From NCBI GenBank assembly GCA_947165755.1, contig CAMVBR010000002.1:1-48000 (forward strand): DNA of 48,000 bases, given 5' to 3'. This DNA is from an uncultured Clostridia bacterium. GTDB taxonomy: Bacteria > Bacillota > Clostridia > Oscillospirales > Acutalibacteraceae. Within the stretch, counting starts at the first letter, position 1, and every line of letters starts with the position of its first letter. The notes below the pieces were generated by a model. That model saw only the letters and a program-made list of their open reading frames with translations. It did no database searches and had not been told where the DNA came from. The position numbers and the translations under genes were made by a program. Shown here in pieces: positions 5,006-48,000 of the stretch.

Positions 5006-5016
5006 TAAAACAGAAA

Positions 5017-5124
<108 letters not shown>

Positions 5125-5151
5125 ATCGATTTATATTTTACCGATATCCGA

Positions 5152-5217: not shown

Positions 5218-5760
5218 ATGAAAGCAACACAAACAAACTCAAAAAGCAACACCACAAAGCTCGTGATCACCGCAATGTTGTCCGCCGTGGCCGTAGCCTT
5301 GCAGTACATTGAAGTTTCCATTCCCATCGTGCCGTCATTTTTAAAACTAGACTTCTCCGATATTCCCGAGCTGATTGGCGCGTTCATCATCGGCCCCGTG
5401 GGCGGCGTGGTGATCTGCCTTTTGAAAAATCTGATCCACATGCTTGCAACAAACTCTTTCGGCGTCGGCGAGCTTTCAAATTTCCTGCTCGGCGCTGTTT
5501 TCTCCGTTGTTGCAGGCCTGATTTACAAACACAAAAAAACAAAGGTCACAGCCCTTATCGCCTGCGTTTCTGCCGCTTTCGCCATGGCGGCGGTATGTAT
5601 ACCGATCAACTATTTCCTGATATATCCCATCTATGCGCAGCTTTGGGCGGGCGGGGATATGAACGTGATCATCAGTATGTATAAAGCCATTGTACCTGCG
5701 TCCGATACGCTTTTGAAATCGCTGCTGATTTTCAATCTGCCGTTTACTTTTGTAAAATGA
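5218..5760 (+). CDS. ribU: Riboflavin ECF transporter S component RibU, ended early by an in-frame UGA
   Basis: This 180-residue membrane protein is the substrate-binding subunit that takes up riboflavin together with an ECF energising module. Hydrophobic helices and the motif KLDFSDIPELIGAFIIGPVGG are typical of RibU. The ATG at 5218 follows CAGGAGG. The stop (TGA, 5758-5760) falls inside the last membrane helix, right after FNLPFTFVK, where the family usually continues with Gly. Reading on in the same frame gives 30 more family-like residues to TAA at 5851-5853. One base change, GGA to TGA, would explain this. It may be a real truncation, stop readthrough, or a sequencing error. The FMN riboswitch upstream supports the function. 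Confidence 0.9.
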   Translation: MKATQTNSKSNTTKLVITAMLSAVAVALQYIEVSIPIVPSFLKLDFSDIPELIGAFIIGPVGGVVICLLKNLIHMLATNSFGVGELSNFLLGAVFSVVAGLIYKHKKTKVTALIACVSAAFAMAAVCIPINYFLIYPIYAQLWAGGDMNVIISMYKAIVPASDTLLKSLLIFNLPFTFVK

Positions 5761-5853
5761 TTGATATGTGCCATAGTCAACATGCTGCCTTATACACCGC
5801 TTTCCAACCTGTTTGTAAAGCTGAACAATCAGATCAATCGCAAACGAACGTAA
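5761..5853 (+). pseudogene. Detached C-terminal segment of RibU
   Basis: In frame with ribU after the TGA, this stretch encodes a hydrophobic LICAIVNMLPYTPLS segment and a basic tail ending at TAA (5851-5853). It looks like the end of the last transmembrane helix and cytoplasmic tail of RibU. It has no start or ribosome site of its own. Confidence 0.7.
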
Positions 5854-5902: not shown

Positions 5903-5920
5903 ATATACAACAATTTAATT

Positions 5921-6011
5921 CCTTATAAAGAGCGGTGGAGGGATCGGCCCTGTGAAACCCGGCAACCTGAATTCAAGGTGCTAAATCCGACGGCGAAGCC
6001 GACAGATAAGG
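5921..6011 (+). promoter_or_regulatory. SAM-I (S-box) riboswitch
   Basis: Closing stem P1 pairs CCTTAT (5921-5926) with ATAAGG (6006-6011). Conserved S-box elements are AGAGCGGTGGAGGGA, GGCCCTGTGAAACCCGGCAA, AAGGTGCTAAATCC and the ACAGATAAGG end. It binds S-adenosylmethionine. With the terminator downstream it should shut off metK when SAM is abundant. Confidence 0.97.
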
Positions 6012-6021
6012 TTATTTTTCT

Positions 6022-6045: not shown

Positions 6046-6062
6046 CAGTGGAGGAAAAGATA

Positions 6063-7250
<1,188 letters not shown>

Positions 7251-46635: not shown

Positions 46636-46672
46636 TATCCGTTTATATCCTTTATGAAAGGAAATGCGCAAC

Positions 46673-47920
46673 ATGGAACAATTTGTAATTGACCAGATCA
46701 GATCGGGACTAAAATACCTTCCCGCGAATCTTGCGAAATCGTATTTCATCAAAAACAGCAACGCCGAAACGATAGCCTTTCGCAGCAAAGGGTTTATTCG
46801 CGGCGTATGCCACCCGAACGAAAACTTTTCCCAGCTGAAGGAAGCGAATATCGGCTGGATCCGCATCGATATCCCTTATCCCTATAAACCGGACGGCAGC
46901 ATTTCCGCGCATTACAAGGGGTTCAAGGAAAAATGCAGGCGTTTTCATGAACACGGGATCAAGGTAATGGCCGTAACGCCCTACCCGAGCGATTATATCG
47001 CCGACGGCGCCGACGTGCGCACGGAGGCGGGGCGGGAAAAGCTGAAAGCCGTTGCCGCGTTTCTGGCGAAGGACCTTCAAAACGACGTGGACGCGTTTCA
47101 GATTACGAACGAGATGGGCATTCCCCACTTTACGCTGCCGCTCACAATGGAGGAGGCCGTTCGCTTTATCGCGCTGCACCTTGAAACGATCTTTCCCATC
47201 AGGGGGCGGCTGCTGATCGGTTACAACTCCGCGGGGCCGCAGGCCGATCTGCACGCCGGATTAAAGCCGTATCTGCAATACGTGGATTACGTAGGCGTGG
47301 ATATTTACGTGGGCTGCTTCGATACGATCCCCGGCGCTATGTGGATGTTCGATTCTCTGCTGCGATACCTTTGGAATTTTACCAAAAAGCCGATCCTGCT
47401 GCAGGAATTCGGCTATATCAGCGGCGGAAAGCCGAAAACGAAAAAAGAAAAGCGGGCCGTGCTGCAGGCCTACGGCTATTCCTCTGAGGCGGAGGCGGCC
47501 AAAGAGCCGGACATGTTCATCGAACGGCTGCCCGAAACGCTGAAAAAGCACGTAAAGCACGTTTGCGAAAACGACCCTGACCGTTATGCGGATCTGCTGT
47601 TCCGAAGCGATCTGAAAAACCACTTTTACAGGGAGCTGCCCGCAATCACAAAAATTCCGGGGTATGAGCATACCCCCGAAGGTCAGGCGAAATTCTACGC
47701 GGATATCCTGCCGCATCTGTATTCTCTTCCGTACGTTTGCGGCGCGATCATTTACTGCTATATGGATTCGGACCGCTGCTATATCTGCGGGCAGAACGAC
47801 TGCCCCACCGAGACCCGCTGGGGGCTGGTGGATTGCGCCGGCAGCCCGAAGCCCTCGTTCTACGCTGTAAAAAAAGCCTTCGGGCGCATCCAGTGGGAAG
47901 ATAAGGTCTCCGATCGATAA
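46673..47920 (+). CDS. Clan GH-A glycoside hydrolase-like protein
   Basis: This 415-residue protein reads as a (beta/alpha)8 barrel of the GH5/GH39/GH42-like clan GH-A. RGVCHPNENFSQLKEANIGWIRIDI opens the barrel (43 on). Glu147 in QITNEMG fits the acid/base (the NE motif after strand 4) and Glu245 in LLQEFGY fits the nucleophile (strand 7). There is no signal peptide, so it acts inside the cell. A Cys cluster (CYICGQNDC) lies near the C-terminus. The family cannot be fixed from sequence alone. The start is the ATG at 46673, 10 bases after AAAGGA; an ATG three codons earlier is too close to that site. Confidence 0.75.
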   Translation: MEQFVIDQIRSGLKYLPANLAKSYFIKNSNAETIAFRSKGFIRGVCHPNENFSQLKEANIGWIRIDIPYPYKPDGSISAHYKGFKEKCRRFHEHGIKVMAVTPYPSDYIADGADVRTEAGREKLKAVAAFLAKDLQNDVDAFQITNEMGIPHFTLPLTMEEAVRFIALHLETIFPIRGRLLIGYNSAGPQADLHAGLKPYLQYVDYVGVDIYVGCFDTIPGAMWMFDSLLRYLWNFTKKPILLQEFGYISGGKPKTKKEKRAVLQAYGYSSEAEAAKEPDMFIERLPETLKKHVKHVCENDPDRYADLLFRSDLKNHFYRELPAITKIPGYEHTPEGQAKFYADILPHLYSLPYVCGAIIYCYMDSDRCYICGQNDCPTETRWGLVDCAGSPKPSFYAVKKAFGRIQWEDKVSDR

Positions 47921-47931
47921 GAGGTGTTATT

Positions 47932-47951
47932 ATGAAAAAGGTTCTGAGTAT
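47932..47951 (+). CDS. Start of a further gene, cut off by adapter sequence
   Basis: GAGGTG lies at 47921-47926 and the ATG at 47932 opens MKKVLS before genuine sequence ends at 47951. Codons read after that are adapter. Twelve bases after the glycosidase-like gene, it is probably in the same operon. Function cannot be inferred. Confidence 0.7.
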
Positions 47952-48000
47952 AGATCGGAAGAGCGTCGTGTAGGGAAAGAGTGTAGATCTCGGTGGTCGC
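47952..48000. other. Illumina sequencing adapter (assembly artefact)
   Basis: The last 49 bases begin AGATCGGAAGAGC and continue exactly as the standard Illumina TruSeq-type read-through adapter, including GTCGTGTAGGGAAAGAG and the flow-cell part. This is not genomic DNA. Confidence 0.98.

Follow-up and report, generated by a model that had tools for sequence, protein, structure and literature searches.

Does the sequence of this contig belong to the genome up to its last letter, or has something been appended to it? The window, that is, the whole stretch of DNA that was analysed, comprises all of contig C2 (48000 bases), and whatever stands at 47952-48000 therefore reaches the very end of the contig. 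The earlier note had taken these bases for untrimmed Illumina adapter, and exact identity, position at the end, three further adapter ends in the same assembly and the pattern of the same 49-mer in public collections bear this out, with coordinates (47952-48000, junction at 47951/47952) that are correct to the base. It is virtually certain that the segment is Illumina TruSeq adapter, sequenced where reads ran past the 3' end of short inserts, and retained as an assembly artefact.

Adapter sequence at the contig end

On the plus strand, the terminal bases read AGATCGGAAGAGCGTCGTGTAGGGAAAGAGTGTAGATCTCGGTGGTCGC, an exact adapter that begins with the 13-base core AGATCGGAAGAGC, points outward and contains the core's only exact match within the window. 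The earlier note had proposed a comparison with known adapter sequence, and this identifies the segment as the Illumina read-2 read-through adapter: 49 of 49 positions agree, without mismatch, with the start of the 58-base reverse-read sequence in PMC10072461, of which solely the final nine bases (CGTATCATT) are lacking. The read-2 adapter given in PMC10038132 corresponds to the first 33 bases of the segment. Within the segment, the read-2 part joins the P5 part directly, with no i5 index between them (read from the sequence, on the established TruSeq layout), which points to a single-indexed TruSeq-type library. In established TruSeq chemistry, the first A (47952) is the A-tail added to the insert, with the oligo proper starting at 47953, and the last genomic base is thus 47951 (Table 1).

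Table 1. Features at the right-hand end of contig C2
Feature	Positions	Strand	Evidence
Last intact real gene ahead of the junction, 418 aa, conserved in the genus	46664..47920	+	ORF list, relatives, Pfam
False open frame, 83 aa, first 16 residues RPPRSTLFPYTTLFRS being translated adapter	47748..47999	-	ORF list
Probable genuine beginning of the next gene: ATG, MKKVLS codons (47932-47949) and two bases, severed by adapter	47932..47951	+	Same-genus genomes
TruSeq read-2 read-through adapter, bases 1-49 of 58 (the single-index universal adapter in reverse complement)	47952..48000	+	Exact match to published adapter; contig ends at 48000
AGATCGGAAGAGCGTCGTGTAGGGAAAGAGTGT, standard 33-base read-2 trimming sequence	47952..47984	+	Match to published read-2 adapter
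AGATCTCGGTGGTCGC, part of the P5 flow-cell sequence in reverse complement	47985..48000	+	Match to published adapter

The letters themselves show these bases to be adapter and an artefact; the steps of read-through and assembly we infer from the chemistry of the library and from the fact that the adapter faces outward. Where an insert was shorter than the read, read 2 would have left the insert and entered the P5-side adapter in reverse complement; such reads would have been incompletely trimmed, and the assembler may then have gone on building the contig from adapter for as long as there was support, ending it there. No evidence against adapter read-through was found in this sequence-level analysis. 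That the 49 bases might instead be genomic DNA resembling adapter by chance or descent has nothing in its favour and a probability that is practically nil: about 2e-23 copies of a given 49-mer are expected in a 2.95 Mb genome, complete E. coli genomes amounting to 28 billion bases do not contain it, in relatives the gene runs on with a sequence quite unlike this one, and the idea is refuted by outward-facing adapters at other contig ends, two of them with a common index.

Outward-facing adapter in this assembly and in public contigs

Three copies of the adapter core occur in the genome against 0.09 expected by chance, and in a pattern search of the genome's contigs all three lie less than 50 bases from a contig end and face outward. 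Besides C2, TruSeq adapter stands at three contig ends (C61, C100 and C226), outward in every case, a count obtained by searching the contig ends of this draft genome by pattern only, so that damaged or partial adapter may escape detection. The last 46 bases of C61 are the same read-2 adapter as in C2, C100 starts with the read-1 adapter in reverse complement (AGATCGGAAGAGCACACGTCTGAACTCCAGTCAC, then ACGCTCGA and ATCTCG), and C226, from a second search, starts with the read-1 adapter, ACGCTCGA and ATCTCGTATGCC, its core being short of one A. The 8-base index ACGCTCGA followed by ATCTCG is thus common to C100 and C226; by established adapter layout we take it to be the i7 index, and its presence at both ends is as expected for one barcoded library. 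No other contig of the same genome shares real DNA at the C2 junction, the sole match being the adapter of C61. The same artefact is present in a same-genus genome, G007, where it closes contig C330.

The exact 49-mer is also found in more than 200 contigs in public collections, in at least 119 stretches of genome contigs and 117 stretches of viral contigs. Among the matches listed, 122 of 124 in genome contigs face the contig end that is nearer, as do 118 of 119 in viral contigs; its median distance to the contig end is 80 bases in genome contigs (again among the matches listed) and 10 in viral ones. The bases that most commonly follow it in public contigs are CGTATCATT, the remainder of the adapter, and at least 32 bases of it are present in seven phage records. 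The few inward-facing matches (2 of 124 in genome contigs, among the matches listed, and 1 of 119 in viral contigs) would suit an adapter ligated as a chimera, an adapter dimer joined to the insert, which would likewise put adapter beside genomic DNA. However, all four adapter ends in this assembly face outward, as short-insert read-through predicts, and none of them (C2, C61, C100, C226) runs on into other DNA; a ligation chimera is consequently a highly improbable source of these ends, and read-through remains the preferred reading.

Contamination of this kind in microbial genomes has been described by Moeller et al. 2024 (PMC11536531), who found 1110 of 15,657 MGnify reference assemblies to be adapter-enriched at p < 0.01, mostly at contig ends. 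The present case resembles theirs in carrying the TruSeq core at draft contig ends, forward at ends and as the reverse complement at beginnings, but differs in extent, with four adapter ends among 490 contigs here as opposed to up to 805 copies per assembly there. Literature searches with the index joined to the P7 string, and with the peptide translated from the adapter, found no paper. There is no credible novel reading of the segment, which is an ordinary, fully explained and already documented artefact without biological meaning.

A probable gene start severed at the junction

The window ends in GAGGTGTTATT ATG AAA AAG GTT CTG AGT AT, followed across the 47951/47952 junction by the adapter, and the resulting chimeric frame from 47932 reads MKKVLSIDRKSVV*, 13 residues with a stop at 47971-47973. 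The earlier note had called the last gene artificial. This holds from the seventh codon onward and fails ahead of it, given that a Shine-Dalgarno-like sequence and the MKKVLS codons fit the next gene of same-genus genomes. In G007, G005 and G010, the gene that follows the homologue of 46664-47920 starts MKKIVSILL, MKKSISLLL or MKKILSVSL; its protein has a signal-peptide-like start and is at least 469-493 aa long, these lengths being minima because the retrieved sequence stops before the gene does. Since these next genes start similarly, 47932-47951 is kept as genomic and only the bases from codon 7 are assigned to adapter; MKKVLS is most likely the real start of a comparable gene, to judge by this resemblance. 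Beyond the junction, three same-genus genomes carry sequence unrelated to 47952-48000, and other relatives have a different neighbour after the 46664-47920 homologue.

The G007 protein has a sub-threshold Abhydrolase_1 match (E 1.6e-4), and the product of 46664-47920 has no Pfam match. A search of the same genome for the remainder of the severed gene identified no adjoining contig; a gene on C4 was considered and rejected, as it is a 41% identical paralogue that matches over nearly its full length. It is very unlikely that the adapter marks a spot of fallen coverage, with the real neighbouring gene absent from the bin as a result.

Trimming, false frames and other features of the contig

The practical consequence is housekeeping only: 47952-48000 and the adapter on C61, C100 and C226 should be trimmed before the contigs are annotated, scaffolded or used in translated searches. 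Neither IDRKSVV nor RPPRSTLFPYTTLFRS, both of them translated from adapter, should be taken as protein sequence; the 83-aa false frame that contains the latter has no Pfam match.

The earlier note had further read the adapter as a warning about the stop in ribU. This does not follow: read-through affects contig ends and not single interior bases, so the adapter should have no bearing on a position 42 kb away and is no evidence on the base in question. The gene itself, a RibU-like substrate-binding gene of an ECF transporter (5218-5850) downstream of an FMN riboswitch (5012-5128), has an in-frame TGA at 5758-5760. Past it, the same frame can be read for another 30 codons, and these align with the C-terminal end of a relative that is 65% identical; two relatives, including that one, have glycine at the TGA position. 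The TGA is a genuine anomaly in the sequence, and may be either a true truncation or a base error. At the opposite end of the contig, where there is no adapter, a tRNA gene lies on the minus strand at 9-97, plausibly a repeat-induced assembly break. The arrangement at 5920-6012 is an ordinary one, with a SAM riboswitch closely preceding a methionine adenosyltransferase-like gene (6048-7250).
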